Of a stretch of 64,000 bases of DNA, positions 13,334 through 43,662 are shown piece after piece. This DNA comes from Tenacibaculum maritimum NCIMB 2154 (lineage in GTDB: Bacteria; Bacteroidota; Bacteroidia; Flavobacteriales; Flavobacteriaceae): contig NZ_LT634361.1 in NCBI RefSeq assembly GCF_900119795.1, positions 1,116,001 through 1,180,000 of the forward strand. Direction: 5' to 3'. The first letter of the stretch is position 1. Every line of letters begins with the position of its first letter. A program made the position numbers and the translations under genes. The notes below the pieces were generated by a model. That model was not told where the DNA came from. It saw nothing but the letters and a program-made list of their open reading frames with translations, and did no database searches.

Positions 13334-13377
13334 AAATGAGTAGTTTTGTATTTAGATTTCAACTTTAATAAATCTAA

Positions 13378-15835: not shown

Positions 15836-15865
15836 TAAGCCACCAAAAATAAATCTGATGGCTTA
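15836..15865 (-). terminator. Weak terminator-like hairpin after the metalloprotease gene
   Basis: Inverted repeat taagcca / tggctta with a 16-base loop lies 9 bp beyond the protease stop codon. The following minus-strand sequence is only modestly T-rich, so termination is uncertain. Confidence 0.35.
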
Positions 15866-15873
15866 ATTATTGT

Positions 15874-21754: not shown

Positions 21755-22530
21755 TAATGTGGAATTTTTAAAGTTAATTTTGTACCAGACCTTTTGGAGC
21801 TTTCTAATAGCATACTTCCACCTATTAGTTCTGTTCGCTTTCTGATGTTTTGCAGGCCAATTCCCTTTGGTTTGATAGTTTCAGTTTCAAAACCGATACC
21901 ATCATCTCTTAAATTAAGATAGACAATAGCATTTGAAATATATAATGAAATTACAATATTTTTACAATTCGAATGCTTAATACTATTTTGAATAAACTCT
22001 TGGGTTATTCGTAATAGAATACTTTTTACTTGATAAGAGTCTAGCGTTTTTTCGATCTTTTTAGAAAATTGAACATTGCATTTTTTTAAATCATTTACTT
22101 TTTTACATTCATTTTGAATGAGTTTACTGATAGAGTTATTTTTTATAGAGTCATCGGTTAAAGACTTAGATAAATGGCGTAACTCTCGTAAGGATTGATT
22201 AATAATATCATTAATACCCCTAATGTTTTCATTGATTTCAGGAGTCTTATTTTCAAAAATTAATTGTTGTGTATAGATGCTAGCTAATGTTAGCTTCTGT
22301 CCGATATTATCATGTATTTCTTGTCCTATATATTGCATTGTTTGGGCTTGTATTTCTATCTGTGTTTCCAGTAATTCTTTTTTATGATGCGCGTCAATAC
22401 TAGAAATTTGCTTTAAATGAGCTCTTTTTTTTATCCGATATTGATAGATAAAGATGGCAATACCACTTAAAAAAGCGATAAAAATAATATTGAATAAGAT
22501 TAAAGTGACTATGATTGGTGTTTCCCCCAT
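21754..22530 (-). CDS. Sensor histidine kinase (HisKA_3/NarX-like)
   Basis: Protein of about 258 residues starting at ATG 22530 (MGETPIIVTLILF); an upstream in-frame ATG at 22602 would place 72 more bases inside the previous gene. One N-terminal membrane helix, a short coiled coil, phospho-acceptor His in GQEIHDNIGQKLTLASIYTQ, and an HATPase domain with DDGIGFE and GIGLQNIRKRTELIGG. There is no periplasmic sensor domain, so input probably comes through the membrane partner encoded just upstream. Confidence 0.88.
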   Translation of the reverse strand: MGETPIIVTLILFNIIFIAFLSGIAIFIYQYRIKKRAHLKQISSIDAHHKKELLETQIEIQAQTMQYIGQEIHDNIGQKLTLASIYTQQLIFENKTPEINENIRGINDIINQSLRELRHLSKSLTDDSIKNNSISKLIQNECKKVNDLKKCNVQFSKKIEKTLDSYQVKSILLRITQEFIQNSIKHSNCKNIVISLYISNAIVYLNLRDDGIGFETETIKPKGIGLQNIRKRTELIGGSMLLESSKRSGTKLTLKIPH

Positions 22531-23156
22531 ATAAAAGAAGCTGCAAATAATAGATACATGAATATGTTCGAAGTTACAAAATAAAAGTAATAGGCATTCC
22601 AAATAGCAACATGTTTTAGTAATTCATGATAAAAAGCAGAAAAAGGATATGTACCAACATAGAACAATATAACCCCTAGATTTATATAAAACATTTTATT
22701 TTCTTTAAACTTTAATATATTATCATTTCTGATTTGCTTTAAGAATTCCAGAACAACTAAAACAATCAAAATAATGCTACCTATGGTTAAATTAACAGGA
22801 TATAAAATTCTTATCTTTTGATCAAAAATTTCGAAAGGAATAAAGGTTGTTAGGTATATCAATGAAGAGATAAAAAATATTTTTTTGCTTTTTAAAGACT
22901 TAAGACCATATAACCAGTATAAGAATAAATATTGAAAAGGAATACCCAAGAAGGCATAATATTCTTGCTTTTTTATATTGAAGATAAATTTGGTGTCTTT
23001 CCATAAAAACTCTTGGATAAAAACAAAACATAAGTAAAATGTAAACCACTTCCAGTAAGTATATTTTATTTTGGGTAAATAATATAAAGAAATTAGGGCA
23101 GTAGTAAATTCTGCCCCGAGTAGTAGTTTGTTTAGAAATGGATAGTAATTGTACAT
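22509..23156 (-). CDS. Polytopic membrane protein, likely part of the two-component operon
   Basis: About 215 residues from ATG 23156 (MYNYYPFLNKLLLGAEFTTA), the first ATG after the preceding gene's stop; an ATG at 23189 would overlap that gene. Six or seven predicted transmembrane helices rich in Phe, Tyr and Trp; no family recognised. It overlaps the kinase start by about 20 bp. A sensory membrane partner for the short kinase is a reasonable inference. Confidence 0.7.
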   Translation of the reverse strand: MYNYYPFLNKLLLGAEFTTALISLYYLPKIKYTYWKWFTFYLCFVFIQEFLWKDTKFIFNIKKQEYYAFLGIPFQYLFLYWLYGLKSLKSKKIFFISSLIYLTTFIPFEIFDQKIRILYPVNLTIGSIILIVLVVLEFLKQIRNDNILKFKENKMFYINLGVILFYVGTYPFSAFYHELLKHVAIWNAYYFYFVTSNIFMYLLFAASFIWGKHQS

Positions 23157-23166
23157 TTTTTTAGGA

Positions 23167-23847
23167 TTAAAAGCTAACTCCAGGATCATCTGCTGGAGGA
23201 ATTAAACTCCCATGATTTTGAGAAAGCACGGTTGTTTTTGCTACTAGGTTGTTAGTTAAAGTAGTAGGATTTATTCCTGATAAAGCAGGTATTCTTGTTT
23301 TAGGATTTATGTCTCCTTGCACCTTTGGCAATCCGTTTTTATAAGTGTTTTTATCTTTAGGATTAAAATCCATAGCTACGTTATTGGCATTTTTTATAGT
23401 CGGAATCATTACTAAAGTATGCAGTTTTTCATATTGTTTAGTAATAGGATCAGCCAAAAATAAAGACAAGTCACTAAACGGTTTTTTCCAAGTTTTTATA
23501 GAAGGGTAGCGCGAGTAATAGATGCGAAGCCCTAGTTGCTTACTACTAACATTATTTTGTTTAGCATTTGTTTCTACATGATATATAAAAGACTTTAGCG
23601 TTTCTAAGTCGAACCAGATAGAGTGCGCATCATTTAGATCCAAACCATTATTAATTTTTGCAAGTTGGTTTTTTTTATAACCATTGACCATTTCGTGGAT
23701 CAATGATAAGTTTAATTCGCTTCCTTTTTCATGAGAATAGTCCATACATATCTTTTCAGATAAACGAGCAGGCTTTTTAGGAGGGTATTTATATATATAT
23801 ACTCCAGAGGCAATAGACACTACTGCTAATAATAAAGATGTAATCAT
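23167..23847 (-). CDS. Hypothetical protein with N-terminal membrane anchor
   Basis: Protein of 226 residues. One N-terminal hydrophobic helix (TSLLLAVVSIASGVYIYKY), then a soluble domain with no recognised family (landmarks IWFDLETLKSFIYHVE and LGLRIYYSRYPSIKTW) and a Pro/Asn-rich C-terminus (about 165-226). It is the first gene of the four-gene operon with the two-component system, divergent from the 24-35 kb cluster across 247 bp. Confidence 0.65.
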   Translation of the reverse strand: MITSLLLAVVSIASGVYIYKYPPKKPARLSEKICMDYSHEKGSELNLSLIHEMVNGYKKNQLAKINNGLDLNDAHSIWFDLETLKSFIYHVETNAKQNNVSSKQLGLRIYYSRYPSIKTWKKPFSDLSLFLADPITKQYEKLHTLVMIPTIKNANNVAMDFNPKDKNTYKNGLPKVQGDINPKTRIPALSGINPTTLTNNLVAKTTVLSQNHGSLIPPADDPGVSF

Positions 23848-24094: not shown

Positions 24095-25150
24095 ATGGAA
24101 AATAGTGTAATCATCAACTCAATAGGAACAGCAACCCCAAGTGTATCCAAAATTTTATCAGAAGCATTTAAAATGCCGCAAGAATTTATCTTAAAATTAC
24201 TGTACAACGCTCCCACGGTTTTATTTCAAAAAGTAGATGAAGCATTAGCAAAAAAAGCGGAAAAAACATTGTCTGAATTAGGTTTGGAGGTTCAAATAGT
24301 CAATGAGAAAGAAGTAATAGCCTTAGCTAAGGAAGAGGTAGAGGTAAGTATCTTTTTTGAAGATGTTTTAAAACTACCAGAAGTAATTCAACAATTATCA
24401 GATTTTTTAGGGTGTAAGCCTGTAGAATCGCTAAATATGTTATTGACATCCCCGAGTATTGTGTTAGGGGGAGTATCTGAAGCAACTGCAAAAGCATTAG
24501 AGGAACGTATTGATGCCGCTGTATGTTATTCAAACCCTAAGCACGATCTGTTTACAATATATGTACCCGCTAGCTTTTCAAAAGATGCCCTTGAAAAAAT
24601 TATGTTAAAAGCAAAAAGAACAACGTATGAATCAGTTGATGCAGGAATTCTTATAAAAGATGTAGCTTATAAAGAGAGTAGTTTAATTTGGAGAGAATAT
24701 CAGTCTGAAAAAGAGTTAAAAGTGATTAACCAAACGCATCAATTAAGCGATGTAGTATTGTTGTCTTTTGAAAAAGAGAATAAGGAACAATCGTCATTTT
24801 TAACAGAGAAAGTAGGAATTCCACTTCATCTATTGCCAATATTAGATAAACATTTACCAATTACGCTTTATGAAAACATTAGCACACAGTCAGCTGAAAA
24901 AATAAGTAAGCTGTGCAAAGATATAGGTATGGATACCTATTTAAAAAAGAAGGTTAAGAGTACTAGGAGGTTGAGCATAGAGGATATCAAGGATAAAGAA
25001 GGAGTTAAGAAAGTGCTACAACAGTTCATAACGTTAAATTCTTTAGGAGAAGGAACTTCTTGGGAAGCTCCAAATCCAATACCTGACTTAATTGCTCGCT
25101 ATTTATATGCTCAATTAGAATATATAAACTGTACCCCAAAAATTAGTTAA
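24095..25150 (+). CDS. Protein of three or four ribosomal L7/L12 C-terminal-domain-like repeats
   Basis: First gene of the unusual cluster; 351 residues, no signal peptide. The N-terminal 75 residues resemble the L7/L12 C-terminal domain in pattern: a helix, a 'KLLYNAPTVLFQKVDEALAK' segment and then AEKTLSELGLEVQIV, comparable to L7/L12 'lvesaP..lke.v...eAe.lk..LeeaGA.vel'. Similar helix-strand blocks recur at about 85-155 (LLTSPSIVLGGVSEATAKAL) and 230-300 (LDKHLPITLYENISTQSAEK). The C-terminal 50 residues differ. L7/L12 similarity is my reading by eye, not a search result. Ends 2 bp before the TPR gene, so the two are coupled. Confidence 0.6.
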   Translation: MENSVIINSIGTATPSVSKILSEAFKMPQEFILKLLYNAPTVLFQKVDEALAKKAEKTLSELGLEVQIVNEKEVIALAKEEVEVSIFFEDVLKLPEVIQQLSDFLGCKPVESLNMLLTSPSIVLGGVSEATAKALEERIDAAVCYSNPKHDLFTIYVPASFSKDALEKIMLKAKRTTYESVDAGILIKDVAYKESSLIWREYQSEKELKVINQTHQLSDVVLLSFEKENKEQSSFLTEKVGIPLHLLPILDKHLPITLYENISTQSAEKISKLCKDIGMDTYLKKKVKSTRRLSIEDIKDKEGVKKVLQQFITLNSLGEGTSWEAPNPIPDLIARYLYAQLEYINCTPKIS

Positions 25151-25152
25151 AT

Positions 25153-25698
25153 ATGGAAAATAAGAGAATGTTGCATTACAGAATAGCAGAACGAGGAAAG
25201 TTGCATGCATTAGAAAAGAATTATCAAGAAGCTTTAAGACACTATAAAGAAGCACTCAGGCTTACACAGTATGAGAAAGATAGTGAGTTATTTTTTCAAC
25301 ATTATAGTCAGTGTGTGATGGAAGCTTTAGAGCAGCTAGGTTCTTATGATGAAGTTATCTCGTTTTGTAAAAATTATAGAGCTTTTTTAGAAGGAAAAGA
25401 GCAAAGTGTTTTGGTTAAAAAACACGATGCTTTTGTAAGTGAGCGACAGGCAATTCAGCATATTTTAAAAGAAGAATCAGAAGAGGCTAAAGAGTTGTTA
25501 TTAAAAATACAACAAAACCTAGGTAAAGGAAAGCACCCCATTACTGACGCATTATTGAGTTGGCTACTAAGAGGATACAAGATCAGTAAAAATCAACTGA
25601 ATAAGTTACAAGAAAAACACCAATATTTCATTGTCAGAAAAGAACTAGTAAATCCTCATGTAGCCATAGATTTACCACAAAAATTATCACCTTTTTAA
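25153..25698 (+). CDS. TPR-like protein
   Basis: Cytosolic helical protein of 181 residues. The N-terminus carries a TPR-like pair (about residues 10-75): AERGKLHALEKNYQEALRHY and the following KEALRLTQYEKDSELFF block. The rest is helical with a basic C-terminus. No signal peptide. In such a cluster a TPR protein typically acts as an adaptor or assembly chaperone; this is inference. Starts 2 bp after the previous stop and ends 18 bp before the next gene. Confidence 0.65.
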   Translation: MENKRMLHYRIAERGKLHALEKNYQEALRHYKEALRLTQYEKDSELFFQHYSQCVMEALEQLGSYDEVISFCKNYRAFLEGKEQSVLVKKHDAFVSERQAIQHILKEESEEAKELLLKIQQNLGKGKHPITDALLSWLLRGYKISKNQLNKLQEKHQYFIVRKELVNPHVAIDLPQKLSPF

Positions 25699-25716
25699 TA
25701 ACTAAATACGATATAA

Positions 25717-27489
25717 ATGCCAACAATTAAAACATTTGAACAAGGGGCAAAAATACTACAGAATACAGATGTGAGTAGTATTGTAACAGGCCTAGCTTTA
25801 GGAATTGCTGAAGCTCAAGAACGATTAGATAATAATTCAGTGAAGCAAATCACCAGATTGTCTGAAACAGCAATAGGAGGAAAGTCTTTATTGGAGCTCG
25901 GATTTCAGCCTGCTTTTTATGCATTTGAGTATGCAGATGTATCCGCGTCTATTAATTTGAAGATGGCTATTCAAGAAGAGTTTGAAATAGATTTTAGTTT
26001 AGCATATGATGCCACTAAAAAGAAAGGATATACAGATGAACATATTCAAAAGATAGAAAATAGTTATAAGGAAGAAAAATATAGAGAATTTAAGAGCAGT
26101 AGAAAATATTGGACAACCTTATCTAATGAGCATACATTAAAAGTTAATCAAACAACGGTAAGTACAAGTACAGAAGTAGGAAGTATTAATAGGATAGAAG
26201 AAACGGCTGAAAAGTTGTCTTCAGATTCGCAGATAGATCGCGTAGATTCACAGGTAATTGAAACGAAGGATGTAGAGAGTACAGATCATACTAACGAGGT
26301 TAAAGTACATAACTATAATGGATTTGGAATGCTGTCTTTAATGGATTATTATGCGGAAGATATTGGGATTTTAAAAATTAAAGATTATACGGGATTAAGT
26401 ATAGCCTTGAATAGTTCCTTGACGTTAGGAGGAAGTACATTATCAGATAATTTAACAGCTATAGGAAGTAGTAGCTTTAAATTAGGAGTAAAAGATAATG
26501 ACCATTTGGAAGTGTATTTTGCTTTTTCAAAGCACCATGCATTAGATTTCGCATATAGCCAGGGAGGTAGCCCTAACAATACAGATTTTTTGAAAGAAAA
26601 GCTAAGAGCTTTGGCTTTTATTATGATGAATGATACAGCAGTAAGCGTTAAAGTAACAGGGCATACGGATAGCGTGAGTGGTGATACATTTAATAAGGAT
26701 CTTGGTTTAAAAAGAGCGAATACAGTAAAAAATTATTTAATAGGTTTAGGGGTAAATGAAGCTCAAATAACTGAAATTGATTCTGAAGGGGAGCAGTTAG
26801 CTAAAGTGAATATAGGAAATGATAAAAATGATCCGGTTTATCGAAAAGCTGTTATTCAAGTAGATACTAATGGAAATGATTACATTTTTGTAGCGGGAGG
26901 TGATTTTGATTTTACGAATTCAGAAGCTATTGCTGATTGGAATGTTGCTAACTTTGGAATATTACAGAAATACGAAAAAACGGATAGTACTACAATTACA
27001 AAAAAACTTAAAGTACAATCAGGAGTTAGTGATGTTTCAGTAGATAAAACTGTAAAAAGTCTAACGGATATAGAAACGGAATTAAATAACACCAATAAGT
27101 TTTATGCTCAGGTTTCAGGAGATATTGTTTACTTATTAAGAAAGGATGCTAAAATAGAATATACATTATTTTCTAATAGTAATGAAGAAATTACTATAGA
27201 AGATACATCTACAAGTACTCAAAACCTTTCGAATAATAATGATACTTTAGAAATACATAAGGTGATTAATAGTAAATATTTTGCTAAATCTGATTTAAAA
27301 AGTATTAAAGATCCTAAAATATCTGCATGGAGTGGTTCTTTAGATGTACGTTATGCACGTCAATTTGGAATGTCAGTAGAAGGAAATGCATCAGTATCGG
27401 CTCGTATGGTTGCTGTACCACCGCCAACAGGTTTAGAAAACTATATTCAAACTGTGTCAGGAAACGTAACCAATTCTTCCGGAAACTAA
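25717..27489 (+). CDS. Cluster paralog with inserted OmpA-like peptidoglycan-binding domain
   Basis: Protein of 590 residues without signal peptide. Its two ends match the small paralogs of this cluster: the N-terminus has the helix (VTGLALGIAEAQERLDNNS) and LLELGFQPAFYAF, and the C-terminus has VRYARQFGMSVEGNASVSAR followed by MVAVPPP. Between them is an insertion of about 430 residues containing an OmpA-type domain (about 265-390) with TGHTDSVSGDTFNKDLGLKR, whose Asp and Arg are the diaminopimelate-binding pair of the family. So a peptidoglycan-binding module is carried on a protein with no export signal. Seven bp separate it from the next paralog. Confidence 0.7.
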   Translation: MPTIKTFEQGAKILQNTDVSSIVTGLALGIAEAQERLDNNSVKQITRLSETAIGGKSLLELGFQPAFYAFEYADVSASINLKMAIQEEFEIDFSLAYDATKKKGYTDEHIQKIENSYKEEKYREFKSSRKYWTTLSNEHTLKVNQTTVSTSTEVGSINRIEETAEKLSSDSQIDRVDSQVIETKDVESTDHTNEVKVHNYNGFGMLSLMDYYAEDIGILKIKDYTGLSIALNSSLTLGGSTLSDNLTAIGSSSFKLGVKDNDHLEVYFAFSKHHALDFAYSQGGSPNNTDFLKEKLRALAFIMMNDTAVSVKVTGHTDSVSGDTFNKDLGLKRANTVKNYLIGLGVNEAQITEIDSEGEQLAKVNIGNDKNDPVYRKAVIQVDTNGNDYIFVAGGDFDFTNSEAIADWNVANFGILQKYEKTDSTTITKKLKVQSGVSDVSVDKTVKSLTDIETELNNTNKFYAQVSGDIVYLLRKDAKIEYTLFSNSNEEITIEDTSTSTQNLSNNNDTLEIHKVINSKYFAKSDLKSIKDPKISAWSGSLDVRYARQFGMSVEGNASVSARMVAVPPPTGLENYIQTVSGNVTNSSGN

Positions 27490-27495
27490 TTTACT

Positions 27496-27987
27496 ATGAT
27501 GAGTGCAACACCTCAAGTTATACAGCAAATAACCAATGCTCCATTATCGTTAATGATAGAAAAGTTAGGGACTTCTATAGCAAATGCACAGGCAGCATTA
27601 GATGCAAATGCTATTCGTTTGGCTAATGAGATGACAACTAAAAAGTTACAGATGGGAGATGAAGAACATAATTTAATTAGCCTTGGTTTTACTCCCACTT
27701 TTTATGCATTTACAGAGGCTTCTTTTGAGGTTAAAATGGAGTTTTCGGTAGCAGAGGCGGAAGATTATGGAGGCGTATTGGATATTGATTATGGCAATAC
27801 CAAAAAGTCAGGAGGAAACGGGAGTGGAGAAACACAAACACAAATGTTTGGTATTTCTATATCGGCACATTATGCAAGAAAATTTTCTGTGTCAGCAGAG
27901 GCATCTTCTTCTATTGCTGCGAAAATAGTATCACTTCCTGCGCCTGATAGTTATTATGAAATATTGAAATCAACGATAAAAAAATAA
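27496..27987 (+). CDS. Small cluster paralog (GFTPTFY / PAP motif)
   Basis: Minimal member of the family, 163 residues. N-terminal amphipathic helix (LMIEKLGTSIANAQAALDAN), LGFTPTFYAF, a beta strand (SFEVKMEFSV), a variable Gly-rich loop (about 95-115), then YARKFSVSAEASSSIAAKIV and a C-terminal SLPAP motif. No signal peptide or membrane segment. The order of elements resembles DUF2589-type proteins as I remember them, but I could not test this. It is followed by a 229-bp gap (27988-28216) with no clear gene, which may carry an internal promoter. Confidence 0.65.
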   Translation: MMSATPQVIQQITNAPLSLMIEKLGTSIANAQAALDANAIRLANEMTTKKLQMGDEEHNLISLGFTPTFYAFTEASFEVKMEFSVAEAEDYGGVLDIDYGNTKKSGGNGSGETQTQMFGISISAHYARKFSVSAEASSSIAAKIVSLPAPDSYYEILKSTIKK

Positions 27988-28216
27988 AATTGAAGCTGAT
28001 ATTAAGATTGTAGCTAGCAATAAATGTAAAAATAAGACTACAGTTTGTATTGATCCTATTCATAGGAAGTGAGTTGGTAACAAACGGGTTGCGTACAAGT
28101 ATTGCTAATTATGATTTAAAATTACTTTCAAAGAAAAGTCCTTTTTATATCGGCAGTTTCAATTGATAAATAGTAGTAAGAATAAAAAAATAAATATTTA
28201 ACTAAAAATAATAATT

Positions 28217-29005
28217 ATGTTTAGAAATAATCCAAGAATAGGGCAAGAGTTGCTAGATGTTCCCATGGGGGATATGATTAAAGAAATGGCATTTGCTATT
28301 GCTGAAGCACAAATGAGATTGGATGAAAATTCCATGGAAGTGGCGGAAATGATGGGGGGACTAAAAACGGTTACAAGGCCTATTACGAAGCCAGATGGAA
28401 CTACGGAAGAAGTGGTAACTTTTGAAGATAGTCGTGTGTTTTTTGGTCAAGAGAAAATTTCAGTATCAGATGCAGTAACGGTATATAATACCACGAAGGA
28501 TGAAGCTTTAAAGGAGCAAATTTATAAAGAAAATACAGCGAGTTCGGGGGGGACTAGTAATGGAAAAAATGAAAATATTTTTGAATCGGATGGAGTAGAT
28601 AAGATAAAGGAAAAAGGGAGTAATACTATCAAGGAAATTATAACCCCTTTGCGCCTTTCTATGTTAGAATTGGGTTTTACCCCTACTTTTTATCAATTTG
28701 TAGATTCAGTAATACAATGCGCCATTACGATTAAATTTACAAGAGAAGGATCTTCATCAGTATCAGTATCTAATAAGAATGAACGTAAAAGTGGAGGGGT
28801 CTCTTTTGGTTTTAGAAGAGGATTAAGAAGTAGTAGAAATGTAAGTACTTCTCAAGTAAATGCAAACTACTCTCAGAAATATAGCTATTCTGCAGAAGGA
28901 TCAAGTTTACTACGTACCAAATTAGTCCCTATTCCACCACCAGCAATTTTAGAAGAGCGTATTCAGCAACAAATGGAGTTAGCAAGAGAACGAAGTACTA
29001 CCTAA
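28217..29005 (+). CDS. Cluster paralog with long insertion after the first helix
   Basis: 262 residues with the same architecture: helix DMIKEMAFAIAEAQMRLDEN, then an insertion of about 110 residues (VTRPITKPDGTTEEVVTF onward), then LELGFTPTFYQFVDSV, a Ser/Arg-rich loop, NYSQKYSYSAEGSSLLRTKL and VPIPPPAILEERI. The C-terminal half is close to that of the next gene (YSQKYxYSAEGSSxxRTKLV), so the two arose by duplication. Fourteen bp from the next gene. Confidence 0.65.
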   Translation: MFRNNPRIGQELLDVPMGDMIKEMAFAIAEAQMRLDENSMEVAEMMGGLKTVTRPITKPDGTTEEVVTFEDSRVFFGQEKISVSDAVTVYNTTKDEALKEQIYKENTASSGGTSNGKNENIFESDGVDKIKEKGSNTIKEIITPLRLSMLELGFTPTFYQFVDSVIQCAITIKFTREGSSSVSVSNKNERKSGGVSFGFRRGLRSSRNVSTSQVNANYSQKYSYSAEGSSLLRTKLVPIPPPAILEERIQQQMELARERSTT

Positions 29006-29018
29006 ATACCAAACAAAT

Positions 29019-29507
29019 ATGGCTAATATAACTAGAGATTTATTAAATGCACCATTGCCAGAAATGGTAAAAACGTTAGGTGTTGGAATAGCTCAAGCAC
29101 AACGCGCACTAGACAAGGTTTCTATGGAGTTGGCAAAAGAGTTGGTGGATACAAAAGTAGAAATGGGAGATGAAGAATATAGTTTATTAGCTTTAGGATT
29201 TACCCCTACCTTTTACCAATATGTAGATACTATTTTAGAAATTAAGATGTCTGTTTCTATGAGTAAGACAACGGAATTTGGTGTTGCTACATCAGTAAGT
29301 GGAGGGGTTAATGTAGGCTTTGTAGCAGTAAGTGCTTCGGTATCTGCTAGTTTTTCTCAGAAATACCAGTATTCTGCCGAAGGAAGTTCTATGGTAAGAA
29401 CTAAGTTAGTAGCAATACCTAATCCACCAGCGTTTGAGCAACGTTTAAAAGCAATGATAGCTACGGAATTGGAAGATAAAAGAAATCAATTAACCTCCAT
29501 TTCTTAA
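29019..29507 (+). CDS. Small cluster paralog (GFTPTFY / PNPP motif)
   Basis: 162 residues. Helix MVKTLGVGIAQAQRALDKVS, ALGFTPTFYQY, strand ILEIKMSVSMS, a Gly/Val/Ser-rich hydrophobic central part (about 95-115), then FSQKYQYSAEGSSMVRTKLV and AIPNPPAFEQRL. No signal peptide. It is the simplest form of the shared fold and the natural query for profile building. Four bp separate it from the next gene. Confidence 0.65.
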   Translation: MANITRDLLNAPLPEMVKTLGVGIAQAQRALDKVSMELAKELVDTKVEMGDEEYSLLALGFTPTFYQYVDTILEIKMSVSMSKTTEFGVATSVSGGVNVGFVAVSASVSASFSQKYQYSAEGSSMVRTKLVAIPNPPAFEQRLKAMIATELEDKRNQLTSIS

Positions 29508-29510
29508 AAT

Positions 29511-30650
29511 ATGGCAACACATTGGAAACATCTTTTACATGAAGAAGCTATTGAAAAGAAGCTTATACATACGCAAAATGATGCTAGGATAATTTTTAAT
29601 GAAAAAAATGAAAAAGCACAATTAAAGGAATTTGCGGCATCAGCTGTCGCATCAAGTACCAATTTGAAATCTTTATTGGAAGAGCAAAGGAAATTAGAAG
29701 AAGAAATGAATGCTCTTACAGGAAAAACTGAGGAGCATTCAAATTCAAATAAAAAATATAATCAAACAATAACTACAATTTATGAGAAGAAGAAGAAAGC
29801 AAAAGAAGAAGTAAAAAAGACTAAAAGAATACGTAGAAAACAAGAAATAACGAAGTCGGAAAGATGGTTGAAAAAAGAAAAGGAGAGGTTTGATTTACAA
29901 GCTAGAATTGATTCGAGTAGGAGGAGAGCAGCGAAAAAGAAAAAAGTAGGTTTAGGAACCTCTTTAGAGGATATCGCAAATAAAAAAGAGGAAAGAAAAG
30001 TAAGCATAAAAAAAGGTTACAATACCAAAGAGAAGAAAGGTAAACAAGTAGTAGGTAAAAAGGATTCGACTTTTGTAGTAAAGAATAAAACAGATACATT
30101 TTTTAAAAAAGGGGGAAACAAGGCAGATGAAGTTCATAGATTAGGTAAAAAGCGGTTGAATATAGAAGTAGTTGATAAAGAACTGGAAAGAAGAGATAAG
30201 GTTTTTAAGTTGGCAACCAATAAAAGCAGAGAATTTAAAAGAAGTCCACCATTGAAGACAATTACAAAAAATAAGGAAACTTTTAATGAAAAGATAAAGG
30301 AGTCTGAATTTGAAAAGAAAGAAAAGAAGAGGTTTTCAATGAGCAATCGTTTTAGGAAAACCAATGATTTTTTGAAAGTATCTAATAGCTATTTGAATAA
30401 AACAAATCAAGTAGCAAAGCATTTTAATGGTTTTTTAAAGAAAACAGATCATCTCTTTCAAAAGGAAAATCACCAAGAAAAACTATTTTCTATGAATTCT
30501 TTGCCCCGTGTTTTTACAGGTGAAGAAGAGAGGAATAAAGAATTTAATTTTAATAAGGGGGTGAATGAGGCACTCTTGCTTTCCAAAAAAGCAAAGCTAG
30601 ATGAATTGCCTAAAAAAAGAAGAACAAAACAGAAAAAGGATAGGTTGTAA
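29511..30650 (+). CDS. Lysine-rich, highly basic helical protein
   Basis: 379 residues, very rich in Lys, Arg, Glu and Asn with almost no hydrophobic core. Long charged stretches (about residues 65-160) predict coiled coil or disordered helix; repeated phrases such as KTNDFLKVSNSYLNKTN appear near residue 285. No signal peptide or recognised domain. The strongly basic composition suggests binding to nucleic acid, acidic polymer or a protein scaffold, but no sequence motif decides this. Tightly placed between the paralogs (4 bp and 27 bp gaps). Confidence 0.65.
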   Translation: MATHWKHLLHEEAIEKKLIHTQNDARIIFNEKNEKAQLKEFAASAVASSTNLKSLLEEQRKLEEEMNALTGKTEEHSNSNKKYNQTITTIYEKKKKAKEEVKKTKRIRRKQEITKSERWLKKEKERFDLQARIDSSRRRAAKKKKVGLGTSLEDIANKKEERKVSIKKGYNTKEKKGKQVVGKKDSTFVVKNKTDTFFKKGGNKADEVHRLGKKRLNIEVVDKELERRDKVFKLATNKSREFKRSPPLKTITKNKETFNEKIKESEFEKKEKKRFSMSNRFRKTNDFLKVSNSYLNKTNQVAKHFNGFLKKTDHLFQKENHQEKLFSMNSLPRVFTGEEERNKEFNFNKGVNEALLLSKKAKLDELPKKRRTKQKKDRL

Positions 30651-30677
30651 ACCTAGTTTTTATAACACATTATTATC

Positions 30678-31379
30678 ATGGATGGAGCACATACAGCAAT
30701 CACGTTAAAAGAAATTTTATTAGGAATATCTGACAGTTTAAATGAGGCGCAGCATCAATTACGAAATGCGACTCCTTATGATGAATATGGGAGGCCGAAT
30801 ACCTTATACACATTACCTTATTTGGATTTTAATTTGCAAGTAGAAACAACCTTAGAAAAGGCAACTCATACAGTTTCTAATACTGACAAAGCAGGAATGG
30901 AAAGAGAATATGCTTTCACAAAAAAGAAGTATTCGCCTATAATGAGATACCGCCCTGTTAGCAAAACAACAAATAGTAAAAAAGGAGATAAGGTTACGAG
31001 CACCATATCAGGGCGCTTTGTAGCTATAGCTCCTAATGAAGGGCTACCGCAATTAATTATAGAGGCAAAACCAATCAAAACGGAAGTGTTAGGTGTTTAT
31101 AATATTGAAGTAAGCGTATTTAACTCAGCAGGTGAAAAAATACCAGGGGCGTTGGTAGAATTTAATTACAACAAAGCAAAAACCACTTTGATTAACTCAG
31201 GAATTTCTTTACAGCATACAACCAACTTTGTTAAACAAGGAGAGTTAATTACGAATCATGAAGGAAAAGTTTTTAATAAAATAAGAATAAATACTACTGA
31301 TTACAATGCTAAATGCATCATTCAAATAGATATTAACGTAGGAACAGTGATCACAAAAATTTCAATTCAAAAATATTAA
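30678..31379 (+). CDS. Cluster protein: divergent paralog N-terminus plus Ig-like domain
   Basis: 233 residues. The first 130 residues weakly follow the family order: helix LKEILLGISDSLNEAQHQL, LPYLDFNLQVETT in place of the GFTPTFY strand, then ISGRFVAIAPNEGLPQLI like the C-terminal proline motif. The last 100 residues look like an Ig-like/Big domain (GVYNIEVSVFNSAGEKIPGA, then an all-beta stretch). Its stop overlaps the next start (TAATG). Confidence 0.6.
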   Translation: MDGAHTAITLKEILLGISDSLNEAQHQLRNATPYDEYGRPNTLYTLPYLDFNLQVETTLEKATHTVSNTDKAGMEREYAFTKKKYSPIMRYRPVSKTTNSKKGDKVTSTISGRFVAIAPNEGLPQLIIEAKPIKTEVLGVYNIEVSVFNSAGEKIPGALVEFNYNKAKTTLINSGISLQHTTNFVKQGELITNHEGKVFNKIRINTTDYNAKCIIQIDINVGTVITKISIQKY

Positions 31380-32839
31380 TGATGTCAGTTAAATATCGTT
31401 CGCTATCATTTCAATGTCAATTATATACAGCAGCTAATCAAGGTGTAATGAATTATTTGATTGATATAGAGTTTTTTAATATAAATCAAGGAAAATGGGA
31501 CAAATTACAAAAAGAACTTCCTTTTAAGGAGGGGAAGTGTACCTTTTTATATACCATTCCATCACGTATTCCTAGAACAGCTATAGTACCTAGAATGATA
31601 AGAGAAACTATAGCGTCAGGAAGTATGCCAATGTTTCGTATTGTTGTTTCAGGAATTGAAAAAACGCAAATAATAGCAGAGGCACCATTGGTAAATATAC
31701 ATCCTAAAGAAGCACGCATTAGTATCGATTTCCAAAAATTATGGCTACTGGATAAGGCGCTAGTTGTAAATAGAAATGTAGAAAGCATTATTGCAACTCC
31801 TGTCTTTTTGGGAGCGATAGAAAAAGAGCAAATCAAGCTGAGGAAAGAAAAAGAAAAATTGATAGAAAAAATTGCGATGCTTCAATCAGAAAATGAAGAG
31901 ACCAGAAGCACTTTAAAAGGAGAGATAAATAGGTTATATGTTAATTTAAGAGAGTTGCGAGAAAACACAAACGCAATTAAGGAAGTTTTAGAGAAAAAAG
32001 AAAAGGAAATAGTGGCGTTAAAAGAACGTTTAAAAAATAACGATGTAATTAATAATAATGCTGAAGAAGTAAGAGAGTTGCGTTTAAAAATTAAAGCATT
32101 GACGGAAGCAATAGAGATACTAAAGAAAGAATACTTTTTTCTAAAAAAAGAAAAGCAGCAAATTGAAGCAACGTTAGAGAAGGCACAGAACGATTTGATA
32201 GTTAATCAAACAACAATAGATAAGCTAGTAACTCAGCTTAAAGAGATGCAAGCTAGTAATAAAGATAAAAACCATGAGATTAAAAGATTACTAGCAACGG
32301 TAAAGGATAAAGATCAGGATCTTAAGGATTTAGAAAAGCGTTTGGAAGAGGTGAAAAGTTATATAGATGCAGAACACCCTAACAAATTAGCAGCTAAAAA
32401 AGTGTATCATAGTATAATGAGTGATATTGCTATAGCAGATAAAGAAATGAGTACTTCTAGATTTAAATTAGCTAATATTTCAATGAATTTAAAAGCAACT
32501 ATTGAAAAAGGACCAGAGGGTACTATGTTAGGGTTGTTAGATTTTGAAGCAGCAAAGCAAATTAATGGAGCGGCTGTTAGTGATATTCATATTGATATCA
32601 TTCCTAATCAAACAACAACAGCAAAAACCAATACCATTCCTAACATAATAGGTTTAACGGAAACAGCTACAAGAAAAATGTTAACAAGCTACGGGCTTAA
32701 ATTAGAAGTGGTATATCAGCCAACCAATGATCCTAAATTAATAGAAGGACAAGCCATTAGGCAATCTCCCGAAGCAGGAAAAGAATTTTATGAAGGAGAA
32801 GAAGTAATTGTAATTTTTGCCAAACCATTAAAAAACTAA
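31379..32839 (+). CDS. Coiled-coil protein with C-terminal PASTA domain
   Basis: 486 residues, no signal peptide. A beta-rich N-terminal domain (about 1-140), a long coiled coil (about 145-345; landmarks KLIEKIAMLQSENEETRSTL and LKEMQASNKDKNHEIKRLL), a linker region, and a C-terminal PASTA domain (about 420-484: NIIGLTETATRKMLTSYGLK, then AIRQSPEAGKEFYEGEEVIV). PASTA domains bind muropeptides or cell-wall fragments on exported proteins. ATG 31382 is an alternative start, one codon later. Confidence 0.7.
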   Translation: MMSVKYRSLSFQCQLYTAANQGVMNYLIDIEFFNINQGKWDKLQKELPFKEGKCTFLYTIPSRIPRTAIVPRMIRETIASGSMPMFRIVVSGIEKTQIIAEAPLVNIHPKEARISIDFQKLWLLDKALVVNRNVESIIATPVFLGAIEKEQIKLRKEKEKLIEKIAMLQSENEETRSTLKGEINRLYVNLRELRENTNAIKEVLEKKEKEIVALKERLKNNDVINNNAEEVRELRLKIKALTEAIEILKKEYFFLKKEKQQIEATLEKAQNDLIVNQTTIDKLVTQLKEMQASNKDKNHEIKRLLATVKDKDQDLKDLEKRLEEVKSYIDAEHPNKLAAKKVYHSIMSDIAIADKEMSTSRFKLANISMNLKATIEKGPEGTMLGLLDFEAAKQINGAAVSDIHIDIIPNQTTTAKTNTIPNIIGLTETATRKMLTSYGLKLEVVYQPTNDPKLIEGQAIRQSPEAGKEFYEGEEVIVIFAKPLKN

Positions 32840-32845
32840 GAAAAA

Positions 32846-33517
32846 ATGTCAAAGAATTCATACGACTATTTAAAGGATGCTTTTGCAGCACCTTTAGGAG
32901 ATTTTATAGCCTCAATAGGAGAAGGAGTAGGAGAAGCACAAGCAGCTTTGGATAAAGGATCATTAAGTCAAACATTAGAAATATATAATGAGGATCCTGA
33001 TAACTCAGAAGCTTCTTTACAATTATTAAGAGAAGTAGGGTACCAACCAACCTTTTACACCATTCCTAAAACAACAGCAAAGGCTAAAATAGCATTGTCA
33101 TTATCACAACAGCCCAATACTGTTTTGAATGGGAGCGCTGTTTTTAAACCTAAGATGTATGCAACTCCAATAAATGCAACCAATAGTAATAGATACAATA
33201 TGAACTTGAATGCAAGTGCCGAAATACAATTTGATATTGTGCCGATACCTCCTTCTGATAGTCAGTTGATTAGGTTTTTGCCTAATGTAATTTTAACTAA
33301 TAAAAAGAATGCAGAAGGAAATTTGATGCCAAGGAGGTTTAAAGAAATTAAACTATTACTCAATGAGTATAATTTAAGGTATGCTTTTTCAGAAGAAGTG
33401 AAAGAGGAGGAAGTGACAGAAGATACTGTTTTCTCAACGCAAATTCCTGCTTATTTTGAAGGGAAGAAGCAAATTTTAAAAGTAGATGATATTATTATAC
33501 TAGGAGGTGTGTTGTAA
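32846..33517 (+). CDS. Cluster paralog (GYQPTFY / VPIPPS motif)
   Basis: 223 residues. Helix LGDFIASIGEGVGEAQAALD, REVGYQPTFYTI, strand AKAKIALSLS, RYNMNLNASAEIQFDIVPIP followed by PSDSQLI, then an extra C-terminal region (about 150-223) unlike the other paralogs. No signal peptide. It is the last structural gene before the amidase block, which follows after 118 bp. Confidence 0.6.
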   Translation: MSKNSYDYLKDAFAAPLGDFIASIGEGVGEAQAALDKGSLSQTLEIYNEDPDNSEASLQLLREVGYQPTFYTIPKTTAKAKIALSLSQQPNTVLNGSAVFKPKMYATPINATNSNRYNMNLNASAEIQFDIVPIPPSDSQLIRFLPNVILTNKKNAEGNLMPRRFKEIKLLLNEYNLRYAFSEEVKEEEVTEDTVFSTQIPAYFEGKKQILKVDDIIILGGVL

Positions 33518-33524
33518 AAAAGGC

Positions 33525-33557
33525 ATATAAGCATGGTTTTTATAAAAGTGCTTATAT
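33525..33557. other. Hairpin between the paralog block and the amidase gene
   Basis: Nine-bp inverted repeat atataagca / tgcttatat with a 15-base loop. No T-run follows on either side, so it is not a standard terminator; it could be an attenuator or RNA processing site. Confidence 0.35.
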
Positions 33558-33635
33558 AATAAAGGAAGGAGGATATAAAAAGATGCTTGGGAAAGAAAAA
33601 TAATACATAAAAATGAAAATTAAATAGCACAGGAA

Positions 33636-34193
33636 ATGATACCAATTATAGATACAGGACATGGGTATAATACACCAGGAAAAAGAAGCGAAGGATTTTA
33701 TAATGAAGAAGGAAGGGTTTTATTAAAAGAAAATTCCGTGAATGAGGCTGTGGGCAATAAACTTTCTTTATTATTTTATTTAAATCATAAAGAAGCTCAT
33801 TTTATAAGTAATGAATGGTATGATATTTCTCTTGAAGAAAGGATAAGAAGAGAAAAGGAACTAGCAAATGATAATACTTTTTTTATAAGTATCCATGCAG
33901 ATGCTTTTCATGTAAAGAATAAAGCTAAAGGAGGTAGGTTTTTTTATTATTCAAATAAAGGAAGGGAAATTGCTTTACATTTAACAAATTATTTAAAAGG
34001 TAATGGATATGGACTTTCATTGAGAGAACCTATGAAAGCTAATTTTAAAGTATTAAGAGCTACTCAAAGTCCTGCTGTATTATTTGAAATGGGATTTATG
34101 ACTACGAAATCTGATTTAGAAATATTATTAACAGATGAGTTTAGGAATAAAACTGCAGCATTACTATATGAAGCTATAACCTCTATGCGATGA
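33636..34193 (+). CDS. N-acetylmuramoyl-L-alanine amidase (Amidase_3), no signal peptide
   Basis: 185 residues that form just the Amidase_3 catalytic domain. Zinc/catalytic residues visible: His in IDTGHGYNTPG (about residue 9), Glu in NSVNEAVGN (about 38), His in SIHADAF (about 88) and Glu in LFEMGFM (about 150). It cleaves the bond between muramic acid and the stem peptide. There is no signal peptide, lipobox or wall-binding domain, so it looks like a phage-type endolysin rather than the exported AmiC class. Its stop overlaps the next start. Confidence 0.85.
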   Translation: MIPIIDTGHGYNTPGKRSEGFYNEEGRVLLKENSVNEAVGNKLSLLFYLNHKEAHFISNEWYDISLEERIRREKELANDNTFFISIHADAFHVKNKAKGGRFFYYSNKGREIALHLTNYLKGNGYGLSLREPMKANFKVLRATQSPAVLFEMGFMTTKSDLEILLTDEFRNKTAALLYEAITSMR

Positions 34194-34561
34194 AAGATAA
34201 GTATTACATCATAATGATCGTTCTTGTTTCTGCCATAGGGTTAGGGAAACATTATTATGATAAGAAAGAGTTCAATGCTCTGATGATTCAAGTCAAAGAA
34301 GATTTGGAAAGAGAAAAGAAAAATGTTGTTAGCTTAAAAGATAGTATTCTTTTAAGGAGGAATAGTGAAATTAATCTATTAATTGAAGAAAATGAAAAAG
34401 CAAAAGCAAAAAGCGCCTATTGGTACACTATTGCAAAACGTAAAAATCTTAATCCTGATTACGATATTGATTTTATTACCGCAGCAAACATACTCGCAAA
34501 TAGTAAGTATAGACCTACAAAATCAAAAGACAGTATTAGACAGGAAAGCTACGATAGATAA
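34190..34561 (+). CDS. Single-TM coiled-coil protein (i-spanin-like)
   Basis: 123 residues. An N-terminal transmembrane helix (IIMIVLVSAIGLGKHYYD), followed by a charged coiled-coil region (about 25-80, FNALMIQVKEDLEREKKNVV). ATGA overlap with the amidase gene shows coupling. Its 3' 170 bp overlap the next gene in another frame. Size, membrane anchor, coil and nested neighbour mirror phage Rz (i-spanin), but no sequence homology is claimed. Confidence 0.65.
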   Translation: MKDKYYIIMIVLVSAIGLGKHYYDKKEFNALMIQVKEDLEREKKNVVSLKDSILLRRNSEINLLIEENEKAKAKSAYWYTIAKRKNLNPDYDIDFITAANILANSKYRPTKSKDSIRQESYDR

Positions 34562-34952
34562 AGCGAAATTTGTAGAGAATGAAAAGCGATTACGGATAGC
34601 AAATACAAAATTATTAGAAATAATTAGAAAGCAAGATAGTGCTATCCAGTCGTTATCTAGCACGAATATTTCTAAGCTAGAAACGATTAAACTTCAAAAC
34701 ATACAAATACTTAAACTTAGTCAAACTGTTCAACGATATACAGAGATGCAATTAGGTTATGAGGAAAAGAAAAAAAGGAAACTTACTTCATTATTTTTTA
34801 AGTTAAGAGCGGATTACTTACCAATGACAAATCAGTATTTGCCAAGTACGGGACTAACATATTTTTGGAGAAAAGTAGGAGGAGGGATTCACATAGGCTT
34901 TTTTAAAGATAGAATTACTTATGGAGCTGAAATAGCTATCAGTGTGTTTTAA
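34392..34952 (+). CDS. Signal-peptide coiled-coil protein overlapping the previous gene (o-spanin-like)
   Basis: 186 residues from ATG 34392; a TTG at 34383 is upstream. The signal peptide (IGTLLQNVKILILITILILL, then LPQQTYSQ) precedes a coiled coil (about 45-120) and a C-terminal, probably beta-rich region (residues 140-186: ADYLPMTNQYLPSTGLTYFW) suggesting outer-membrane attachment. There is no lipobox Cys. The start is embedded in the preceding gene out of frame by about 170 bp. Together with the amidase it completes a lysis-like cassette. Confidence 0.6.
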   Translation: MKKQKQKAPIGTLLQNVKILILITILILLPQQTYSQIVSIDLQNQKTVLDRKATIDKAKFVENEKRLRIANTKLLEIIRKQDSAIQSLSSTNISKLETIKLQNIQILKLSQTVQRYTEMQLGYEEKKKRKLTSLFFKLRADYLPMTNQYLPSTGLTYFWRKVGGGIHIGFFKDRITYGAEIAISVF

Positions 34953-35547: not shown

Positions 35548-35783
35548 GTGAGGTAGTTTTTTGTTTCATAAAAATAGTAGCAAAATAAAAGCGGTTGTCA
35601 TTGCAAATGGCAACCTGCAAAGGGGAATGAAACCTCTCCGTACCTTGACATTTAGCGTCAGCGCAATGGCAAGACTTAAATGTAGGTTTAAAAAGAAACT
35701 GGCATATTATTAGCTATTTGAAATGACATAAAGAGAAGCTTACAATAGTAATATTAAAGCTTTTTTTGTATTTTAGTTGTGTT

Positions 35784-36347
35784 ATGAGTAAAGGAACAAC
35801 AAGTTACAGAATACAAGATGAAAATGCATTATATTTTTTAACATTTAGTACGGTAGAATGGATAGATGTTTTTACAAATAAGAAATACCAAGATATTGTA
35901 GTAACAAGTTTACAATATTGTATAGATGCAAAAGGCTTAGAGTTGTGTAGTTGGGTAATCATGAGTAATCATATACATTTAGTAGCAAGAGCCAAAGAAG
36001 GCTATAAAATGACAACTATTTTACGAGATATGAAAAAGTTTACAAGTAAGAAAATACTAAAAGAAATACAAGAAGGTTCAGAAAGTAGGCGAGATTGGTT
36101 GTTGTTAGTTATGAAAAAGTCAGCGGAGAAAAATAGTAAAAAGCAAAATTATCAGTTATGGCGAAATGATAATCATCCAATAATTTTGTATTCTAATGCG
36201 GTTATTTACCAAAAGATAAATTACGTACATCAAAATCCAGTAAAAGCAGGTTTGGTTTTCAATCCGGAAGATTATGTATACAGTAGTGCTGTAGATTATT
36301 CAGGGAAGGCAGGTTTGTTACCAGTAATTAAGACTAAGCTTTTTTAG
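35784..36347 (+). CDS. REP-associated tyrosine transposase (RAYT, Y1_Tnp)
   Basis: 187 residues from ATG 35784; an earlier TTG at 35766 is less likely. Domain: FLTFSTVEWIDVF, the HUH motif in IMSNHIHLVARAKEG (His-x-His, metal-binding), and the C-terminal INYVHQNPVKAGLVFNPEDY followed by VYSSA, which is characteristic of RAYT proteins. It nicks and moves REP-type hairpins as single strands. It lies inside the repeat region, and the neighbouring hairpins are its plausible substrates. No frameshift, so it may be active. Confidence 0.88.
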   Translation: MSKGTTSYRIQDENALYFLTFSTVEWIDVFTNKKYQDIVVTSLQYCIDAKGLELCSWVIMSNHIHLVARAKEGYKMTTILRDMKKFTSKKILKEIQEGSESRRDWLLLVMKKSAEKNSKKQNYQLWRNDNHPIILYSNAVIYQKINYVHQNPVKAGLVFNPEDYVYSSAVDYSGKAGLLPVIKTKLF

Positions 36348-37095: not shown

Positions 37096-37121
37096 TGTAT
37101 TGATAATGTTAACAGCCCCCG

Positions 37122-39383
37122 CACCTTGACATTTAGCGTCAGCGTAATGACAATATTTAAATGGAAGTTTAAAAAGAAACGAGCATATTATTAGCCATTT
37201 GTAATGGCATAACGAGAAGTTAAAAAAGAAGCTACCTTGCATTGTTTTGTGAGGTAGTTTTTTGTTTATTAGGAGTATGCTTTTTTAGTTTTGGCATCTC
37301 CGCACCTTGACATTTAGCGTCAGCGTAATGGCAATATTTAAATGGAAGTTTAAAAAGAAACGAGCATATTATTAGCCATTTGTAATGGCATAACGAGAAG
37401 TTAAAAAAGAAGTTTCCTTGTATTAGATTGTGAAGTAGTTTTTTGTTTCATAAAAATAGTAGCAAAATAAAAACGGTTGCCATTGCAAATGGCAACCTGG
37501 AAAGAGGAATGAAACCTCTCCGCACCTTGACATTTAGCGTCAGCGTAATGGCAATATTTAAATGGAAGTTTAAAAAGAAACGAGCATGTTATTAGCCATT
37601 TGCAATGGCAAAACGATAAGTTAAAAAAGAAGTTTCCTTGTATTAGATTGTGAGGTAGTTTTTTGTTTATTAGGAGTATGCTTTTTTAGTTTTGGCATCT
37701 CCGCACCTTGACATTTAGCGTCAGCGTAATGGCAATATTTAAATGGAAGTTTAAAAAGAAACGAGCATATTATTAGCCATTTGCAATGGCAAAACGATAA
37801 GTTAAAAAAGAAGTTTCCTTGTATTAGATTGTGAGGTAGTTTTTTGTTTATTAGGAGTATGCTTTTTTAGTTTTGGCATCTCCGCACCTTGACATTTAGC
37901 GTCAGCGTAATGGCAAGGTTTAAAAAGATGTTTAAAAAGAAACGAGTATATTATTAGCTATTCTATAATGGCAAAACGAGAAGTTTAAAAGAAGCTACCT
38001 TATATTAGTTTGTGAGGTAGTTTTTTGTTTTATAAAAATAGTAGCAAAATAAAAACGGTTGCCATTGCAAATGGCAACCTAGAAAGAGGAATGAAACCTC
38101 TCCGCATCTTGACATTTAGCGTCAGCGTAATGGCAATATTTAAATGGAAGTTTAAAAAGAAACGAGCATGTTATTAGCCATTTGCAATGGCAAAACGATA
38201 AGTTAAAAAAGAAGTTTCCTTGTATTAGATTGTGAGGTAGTTTTTTGTTTATTAGGAGTATGCTTTTTTAGTTTTGGCATCTCCGCACCTTGACATTTAG
38301 CGTCAGCGTAATGGCAATATTTAAATGGAAGTTTAAAAAGAAACGAGCATATTATTAGCCATTTGCAATGGCAAAACGATAAGTTAAAAAAGAAGTTTCC
38401 TTGTATTAGATTGTGAAGTAGTTTTTTGTTTCATAAAAATAGTAGTAAAATAAAAACGGTTGCCATTGCAAATGGCAACCTGGAAAGAGGAATGAAACCT
38501 CCCTCTCCGCACCTTGACATTTAGCGTCAGCGTAATGGCAATATTTAAATGGAAGTTTAAAAAGAAACGAGCATGTTATTAGCCATTTGTAATGGCATAA
38601 CGATAAGTTAAAAAAGAAGTTTCCTTGTATTAGATTGTGAGGTAGTTTTTTGTTTATTAGGAGTATGCTTTTTTAGTTTTGGCATCTCCGCACCTTGACA
38701 TTTAGCGTCAGCGTAATGGCAATATTTAAATGGAAGTTTAAAAAGAAACGAGCATATTATTAGCCATTTGTAATGGCATAACGATAAGTTAAAAAAGAAG
38801 CTACCTTGCATTGTTTTGTGAGGTAGTTTTTTGTTTATTAGGAGTATGCTTTTTTAGTTTTGACATCTCCGGACCTTGACATTTAGCGTCAGCGTAATGG
38901 CAATATTTAAATGGAAGTTTAAAAAGAAACGAGCATATTATTAGCCATTTATAATGGTAAAACGAGAAGTTAAAAAAGAAGCTACCTTATATTAGTTTGT
39001 GAGGTAGTTTTTTGTTTTATAAAAATAGTAGCAAAATAAAAACGGTTGCCATTGCAAATGGCAACCTAGAAAGAGGAATGAAACCTCCCTGCAAGGTGCA
39101 GGACGCTTTTGTGGCTGCAATGAAACCTCCCTGCAAGGTGCAGGACGCTTTTGTGGCTGCAATGAAACCTCCCTGCAAGGTGCAGGACGCTTTTGTGGCT
39201 GCAATGAAACCTCCTTGCAAGGTGCAGGACGCTTTTGTGGCTGCAATGAAATCTCCCTGCAAGGTGCAGGACGCTTTTGTGGCTGCAATGAAACCTCCCT
39301 GCAAGGTGCAGGACGCTTTTGTGGTTGCAATGAAACCTTCCTGCAAGGTGCAGGATGCTTTCGTGGAGAAATGAAACCCACCA
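37122..39383. repeat. Ten-unit tandem array of 181-bp and ~220-bp modules
   Basis: Unit starts fall at 37122, 37303, 37523, 37704, 37885, 38104, 38285, 38510, 38691 and 38872, ending at 39384. Spacings are 181, 220, 181, 181, 219, 181, 225, 181, 181 and 512 bp. The last is 219 plus a 293-bp minisatellite. The 181-bp form ends in ttaggagtatgcttttttag; the longer form replaces this with the ggttgccatt hairpin tail and a gaatgaaacct end. The two types share the first about 150 bp nearly unchanged. No coding capacity beyond chance. Confidence 0.85.
39078..39370. repeat. 42-bp minisatellite, seven copies
   Basis: Seven head-to-tail units starting at 39078, 39120, 39162, 39204, 39246, 39288 and 39330, the last one base shorter. 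Each starts atgaaacctccctgcaaggt and contains the palindrome cctgca-agg-tgcagg. It is much richer in G+C than the surroundings. Since 42 is divisible by three, several frames stay open on both strands (e.g. repeated MKPPCKVQDAFVAA), but there is no supporting gene context. A partial, decayed copy lies near 39565. Confidence 0.9.
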
Positions 39384-43592: not shown

Positions 43593-43662
43593 AATATTCA
43601 AAATTTATAGTTTTACGTAATTTTTGAAAGAAGATGATCGTATTAAAATTTATACTGGTTAG

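Follow-up and report, generated by a model that had tools for sequence, protein, structure and literature searches.

A conserved ten-gene unit with DUF2589-related paralogs and wall-binding domains in Tenacibaculum maritimum: a possible particle or scaffold

Thirteen open reading frames (ORFs) stand close together on the plus strand, at 24095-34952, in a stretch of 64,000 nt from the genome of Tenacibaculum maritimum NCIMB 2154 (3.44 Mb in a single contig; assembly GCF_900119795.1, contig NZ_LT634361.1, positions 1,116,001 to 1,180,000 of the forward strand). This whole stretch is called the window below, and its own numbering is used. According to the ORF list of the window the gaps in the run are mostly very short, with 229 nt between the genes called D and E here. 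A preliminary description of the window, made from the letters and the ORF list, took all thirteen genes for a candidate undescribed assembly, associated with the envelope or released by lysis. The compact run is confirmed, but conservation extends over ten of its genes and not all thirteen, namely A to J (24095-33517), while genes K to M (33636-34952) were matched in none of the 81 other loci compared.

How widely is this unit kept together? An F-type profile was searched against genome contigs with one genome per species, covering 84,980 species, and 137 loci were confirmed. The best 80 of these (L012-L091), the window and a plasmid locus (L011) form a set of 82 loci, from which family profiles were built and searched back over the six-frame ORFs of those same loci; a family was counted as present at 60 bits or more. 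By this threshold all ten families are found in 64 of the 82 loci. The order from A to J is kept in 63 of the 64, and in the remaining one, L076, it holds when judged by gene ends. The complete loci have a median span of 9.1 kb and median gaps between -4 and 28.5 nt. Among the 18 incomplete loci, 13 are cut by the end of a contig or locus, two of them (L020 and L030) being also without a full G. The others are variants: C and G were not found at threshold in L084 and L085, nor G in L090, L066 (Anaerolineales) is rearranged and cut, and L011 is a mini-cluster described below. Outside the 82-locus set, the genome G028, of the window's genus, has A to J in order at locus L140.

Going by record titles, the 80 kept loci come from Pseudomonadota (42) and Bacteroidota (34), with a single locus in each of Gemmatimonadota, Chloroflexota, Latescibacterota and Verrucomicrobiota; the 64 complete loci are the window, 34 from Pseudomonadota, 28 from Bacteroidota and one from Gemmatimonadota. 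The gene order is kept in at least these three phyla, and the synteny whose loss in all relatives the preliminary description would have counted against itself holds across them. The F family is rare among the window's relatives (2 of 59 genomes, one being the window's own) and in a sample of the phylum (2 of 296 genomes, namely the window's own and a mini-cluster in G172). One match was found among plasmid records and none among 50,697 phage records, and no F-type protein was confirmed in IMG/VR viral contigs. Trees built for the genes A, C, D, E, F and J are concordant across 65 loci, with rho of 0.69-0.88 vs a permuted maximum of 0.13. A branch with support 1.0 sets the 29 Bacteroidota rows to one side; Gammaproteobacteria do not form a single group, their largest pure side having 6 of 21. 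The sole other member on the Bacteroidota side is L035, from a record titled Glaciecola amylolytica (Gammaproteobacteria); its flanking genes cluster with Fluviicola loci, and this genome is possibly mislabelled.

Six of the ten proteins share one small domain. Profile comparison by hhalign finds it at both ends of C, in D, E, F and J, and more weakly at the N-terminus of H, which bears out the earlier reading of repeated paralogs of one fold; the scores are 100 for D-F and E-F, 99.5 for D-J and for the N-terminal copy of C with D, and 93.5, or 95.7 in a second comparison, for the N-terminus of H with J. In C (25717-27489; all genes from A to M are on the plus strand) the domain is split by an insert. 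D (27496-27987) and F (29019-29507) are short paralogs, and F has 389 homologues at E ≤ 1e-3. E (28217-29005), whose family is found in 81 loci, has a longer middle part. H (30678-31379) continues after the domain with a C-terminal part without a family match, J (32846-33517) ends in an additional tail, and gene I (31379-32839) has at most a weak trace of the domain. Modelling of F by AlphaFold2 gives a helix, two strands of about 20 residues each and a helix (predicted local distance difference test score 68.4, predicted template modelling score 0.47). The weak structural rows for this model include FliF, FlgH, SpoIIIAG and binary-toxin pores, which form rings or barrels and have long beta hairpins.

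For D, E, F, G, H and J no family beyond noise was obtained from Pfam, NCBIfam or PADLOC. The order of the elements in the paralogs suggested a comparison with the Pfam family DUF2589 (PF11655). Profile-profile alignments by hhalign are colinear but weak (53 for D, 64 for D and F merged, 5 for F alone). A DUF2589 profile built from the DUF2589 loci collected here was then searched over the 6738 ORFs of the A-J loci. At E ≤ 1e-3 it gave 22 matches (17 to D, the commonest family, 4 to F and 1 to E), and at E ≤ 1 it gave 93 (37 D, 29 E, 26 F, 1 J) with none in other ORFs; the control with reversed sequences gave 1 match. Pfam's own model, PF11655, has no match in A-J at Pfam criteria and none in the window's genome, and it is absent among 25 of 28 Pfam families listed for 117 F homologues. 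The family itself occurs in 7 of 59 relatives and in 18 of 296 genomes of the phylum sample. Judged by the profile matches of D, E, F and J, the paralogs belong to the uncharacterised DUF2589 superfamily, whose function is not known, and homology of several genes to a known system, which the preliminary description had named as a point that would tell against it, extends only this far. Weak matches to Trypco2 were seen in 3 of 117 F homologues, with the best E at 0.051; Trypco domains are treated in PMC7159879, and according to PMC3949148 the short DUF2589-related genes AF0414-AF0417 of Archaeoglobus are up on lactate. A published account of the A-J operon was not found in the literature searched.

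Many of the DUF2589 loci read have three genes (DUF2589, t1 and t3), whereas A-J has ten with OmpA, PASTA, L12-like and TPR members. Between the two in size are five-gene mini-clusters, L139 in G172 (2293-5658, minus strand) and L011 on a Sphaerotilus plasmid (13646-16425, plus strand). Like A-J they have an F-like, a D-like and a coiled-coil gene in one run, but an A-, B- or C-type gene was not seen in them. When a set of 8 was searched with the DUF2589 profile, their F-like genes matched it (E 1.1e-6 and 6.6e-6), and the mini-clusters are a possible minimal form of the system.

Which parts of the unit could touch the cell wall? The insert of C holds an OmpA-type domain (PF00691, 2.2e-9), as had been read from the sequence, and 73 of 77 members of the C family have it. 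In the AlphaFold2 model of C this domain is placed at the tip of the hairpin arm. Asp 318 is kept in 73 of 77 members and Arg 333 in 77 of 77. Such Asp and Arg residues of OmpA domains hold diaminopimelate. By its fold and these two residues the domain of C is a putative peptidoglycan-binding one. It differs from OmpA/Pal peptidoglycan anchors in lying within a DUF2589-type subunit without an evident signal peptide. Gene I has an N-terminal part, a coiled coil of variable length and a C-terminal PASTA domain (2.2e-10), again as described earlier; PASTA was found in 70 of the 72 I proteins scanned, of 75 found. The C-terminal tail of J is PASTA-like, with an hhalign score of 97.8 against the PASTA of I.

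The remaining proteins are less distinct. Gene A (24095-25150; family in 74 loci) has repeats like the L7/L12 C-terminal domain (PF00542, E 1.4e-4, below the curated cut-off), and its internal repeats A1-A4 align with each other at hhalign scores of 70-97 (96 for A1-A2, 97 for A1-A4). Gene B (25153-25698; family in 76 loci) is a TPR protein (PF00515, E 1.7e-5, below cut-off). Both assignments agree with the preliminary description. Gene G (29511-30650) is Lys-rich, with a median net charge of 5.9 per 100 aa in its family; it is one of the least conserved of the ten, found in 71 loci with low and uneven profile scores. An Ig-like fold proposed for H stays unconfirmed, as H has no Pfam match up to E 1. 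The first eleven genes had also been said to encode no signal peptide or membrane helix. By hydropathy alone (19-residue Kyte-Doolittle windows with a mean above 1.6), between 0 and 8 members of each family from B to J are flagged, but more in A, as given below.

Genes K to M resemble a phage lysis cassette. K (33636-34193) is the amidase noticed before, an endolysin-like Amidase_3 (PF01520, 2.3e-26; phrog_435 endolysin in PHROGs, 7.5e-22). L (34190-34561) reads as a hydrophobic N-terminus followed by a coiled coil and has no Pfam match. M (34383-34952) overlaps L and has a homologue in Croceibacter phage P2559S, to which residues 33-189, 83% of the query, align at 43.9% identity (E 4e-35); an annotated amidase gene lies directly upstream of that homologue in the phage. 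As blastp (E ≤ 1e-3) matched none of the three to a gene of the 81 remaining loci, they are local neighbours found only at the window locus, and the amidase with the two overlapping genes drops out of the proposed unit.

The link with wall hydrolases itself recurs in distant relatives. Such a gene stands beside A-J in 10 of the 82 loci, the window included, from Bacteroidota, Gammaproteobacteria and Verrucomicrobiota; these are nine lineages at most, as L086 and L089 are from one genus, and five Pfam families are involved. Downstream of J there are an Amidase_2 gene at 5 nt in L081, another at 25 nt in L085 with a second Amidase_2 next to it, and a GH108 gene after an extra paralog in L084. 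Upstream of A on the same strand there are CHAP genes at 13 nt (L024) and 17 nt (L074) and an Amidase_2 gene at 16 nt (L061). In L046 a CHAP gene (below cut-off) on the opposite strand precedes A by 224 nt, and in L086 and L089 M15 genes lie upstream of A. With 14 hydrolase queries, adjacent genes gave 9 matches in 139 vs 2 in 450 at ranks 2-5 (Fisher 6.5e-5), a contrast biased towards adjacency because 11 of the 14 queries were taken from these very neighbour genes; both matches at ranks 2-5 (L084, L085) lie inside a hydrolase or paralog run beside J. The unbiased part consists of five queries taken from DUF2589 loci, which match three A-J loci (L024, L046, L074), all in adjacent genes.

Do the DUF2589 loci show a similar company? 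Of 22 genome loci read, four have lysis-type genes. L156 has an S24-type repressor, DUF2589, t1, t3, CHAP, a holin, a 195-aa protein with a hydrophobic N-terminus and a 620-aa protein matching a tail-fibre family. L157 has, by reading, a similar repressor and a CHAP-like protein that matches tail-lysozyme and endolysin families. L181 has two DUF2589 genes, a CHAP-like protein of the L157 kind and a holin, and L166/L167 has an M15 endolysin, a patatin-like protein, the triad and a protein of 1649 aa that matches tail proteins weakly. In the parts of these loci that were read, neither a tail sheath nor a capsid gene was noticed. In L166 two giant proteins, of 1649 and 1253 aa, are encoded beside the triad (7534-16421, minus strand); the former has the weak phage matches and the latter none in PHROGs at E ≤ 0.001. 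On the IMG/VR contig L165, DUF2589, M15 and patatin-like genes stand near genes of contractile-tail type (DUF2586, tape-measure, baseplate-type), so that a phage connection stays open, and an unverified phage record of 4 kb likewise has DUF2589 close to such contractile-tail genes.

Some DUF2589 triads of Flavobacteria share another neighbour with the window, a two-component block. In the window a divergent block lies upstream of A on the minus strand (21116-23847), with a LuxR-type response regulator (21116-21754), a HisKA_3 kinase (21754-22602), a membrane protein (22509-23189) and a 226-aa protein with a hydrophobic N-terminus (23167-23847). It adjoins A-J in the window, L012, L014 and L015, and had no match at the G028 locus (L140/L141). 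A related kinase and regulator occur at 6 of 10 DUF2589 loci (L151-L155, L158), and the membrane gene is matched by blastp in three of the six. L158 is the closest, with identities of 70% for the regulator, 61% for the kinase, 50% for the membrane protein and 47% for the 226-aa protein; at the other loci the regulator is 44-47% and the kinase 33-37% identical. We propose that the block is a regulator in loci of the Tenacibaculum type. On the other side of the run, directly downstream, is a Y1_Tnp (IS200-like) transposase gene at 35766-36347 (PF01797, 2.9e-8). Tandem repeat arrays with units of 181 and 401 bases follow within 37119-39378, and then a 42-base unit repeated 7.2 times (39077-39378), which yields long ORFs on both strands that are probably not genes. 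An apparent cluster of xanthine-dehydrogenase type is read at 42642-47879 on the minus strand.

Is the unit a member of some known system? Tailocins and extracellular contractile injection systems are assembled in the cytoplasm, contact the wall and in many cases are released by lysis. These features they would have in common with A-J, but their profiles are lacking: neither Pfam (E ≤ 1) on A-J nor PHROGs (E ≤ 1) on A, B, C, E, H, I, J, K, L and M gave a sheath, tube, baseplate or AAA+ match, and this class is rejected for the proteins searched. In PHROGs C was matched through OmpA, K as an endolysin and I through its coiled coil, including tape-measure and pilot families (best 3.6e-4). No capsid, portal, terminase or integrase was seen near the run on reading the window's ORFs (no window-wide profile search was made), where K to M are the lysis-type genes present. 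The earlier statement that no sheath, tube, baseplate, ATPase, capsid or terminase is recognisable agrees with Pfam, NCBIfam and PADLOC on A-J and with PHROGs on the ten proteins, and A-J appears as a known system in none of the profile libraries run. Gas vesicles and R-bodies are also built with several paralogs of one small protein, GvpA being helix-strand-strand-helix. The A-J paralogs are likewise several and small, but differ in their strands of about 20 residues and in the wall-binding domains of the unit; both classes are rejected, with no GvpA-family and no Reb-family Pfam match up to E 1 in the A-J of the window. Anti-phage defence is rejected too, as PADLOC at E ≤ 0.1 matched I alone, through its coiled coil and, for PD-T4-6, the PASTA region.

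The best explanation, to which we give a probability of roughly 45%, is that A-J encodes a wall-docking assembly that is built in the cytoplasm, works with an endolysin and is perhaps released by lysis. The subunits C, D, E, F and J, and probably H, all of the DUF2589 superfamily, would form one large cytoplasmic assembly. In each subunit a long two-stranded beta arm would stand between two helices, and such arms would probably line up against one another to make a ring, a tube or a lattice. C would present its OmpA domain at the tip of the arm, and PASTA-type domains would end I and J; the position of these domains suggests that the assembly docks on peptidoglycan in vivo. A may be an assembly chaperone or adaptor, B an assembly chaperone and G a basic scaffold. 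At the wall the assembly would meet an endolysin-type hydrolase, whose gene adjoins A-J in some loci and presumably has another place in the genome in the rest; this enzyme would either free the finished particle by lysis or open the wall at the docking site. The idea of the preliminary description, a scaffold or particle made in the cytoplasm, is in part supported, since the wall-binding domains and the hydrolase link speak for it while the thirteen-gene unit does not hold.

Several observations weigh against this explanation. The hydropathy threshold is passed by 17 of 74 A proteins. The model of F is moderate (0.47, as given above) and has no match in PDB at E ≤ 0.001, the DUF2589 profile does not match C or H, and an A-J oligomer is neither predicted nor seen. 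A hydrolase neighbour was not found in 72 of the 82 A-J loci, by partial scans in which not every neighbour was searched with profiles, and two holin queries had no match in the A-J flanks; to this comes the bias of the adjacency test. No lysis genes were found on reading the other 18 of the 22 DUF2589 loci. The four that have them are not fully independent, as the same sdh genes adjoin L156 and L157, both of one genus, and a single genome contains L156 as well as L181.

Among the other explanations, the one that survives best, although we regard it as unlikely, is an envelope scaffold that is not released: A-J would form a ring or lattice docked on the wall, and the hydrolase would open the wall locally, as in the assembly of envelope-spanning machines. 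The OmpA and PASTA domains, the hydrolase neighbours and the weak structural likeness of F to FliF, FlgH, SpoIIIAG and binary-toxin pores are all consistent with it. Still less probable is an intracellular body, such as a filament, a shell or a sensory body comparable to gas vesicles or R-bodies, in which OmpA and PASTA would bind other ligands and the hydrolases would mark hot spots of insertion. The few hydrophobic segments, the several paralogs of one small fold, the many loci without a hydrolase found and the two-component block adjoining four A-J loci would fit such a body, but the conserved Asp and Arg of the OmpA domain and the recurrence of five hydrolase families, three times within 13-17 nt upstream of A on its strand, argue against it. 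A remnant of a prophage or tailocin is very improbable, for despite the phage homologue of M beside an amidase gene, the contractile-tail genes near DUF2589 in L165 and the 4-kb record, and a viral protein (A0A516MP19) matching the F model at E 2.5e-6, synteny of all ten genes extends over 64 loci from three phyla, F is unmatched in the phage records and unconfirmed in viral contigs, and the proteins searched have no tail or capsid profile except the coiled-coil matches of I.

A wider and more tentative proposal is that A-J and the DUF2589 triads might be two forms, a large and a small one, of a single class of bacterial particles that has gone unrecognised. Such particles would be built in the cytoplasm from DUF2589-type subunits instead of phage tail or capsid parts, the large form having wall-binding domains, and would use interchangeable endolysins, with a holin, a LexA/CI-like repressor and fibre-like genes added in some DUF2589 loci. 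They would be released by lysis or pushed through the wall, and act outside the cell.

What would this mean? None of the known systems checked matches A-J, which may represent a bacterial particle or scaffold of a new kind. The ten genes stay linked in several phyla, and for most of them the libraries searched give no specific family name; together this points to a machine so far overlooked. The DUF2589 family would gain a context, as a subunit of an assembly that engages the wall. If particles are found, they would represent a phage-like strategy carried out with parts that are not from phages.

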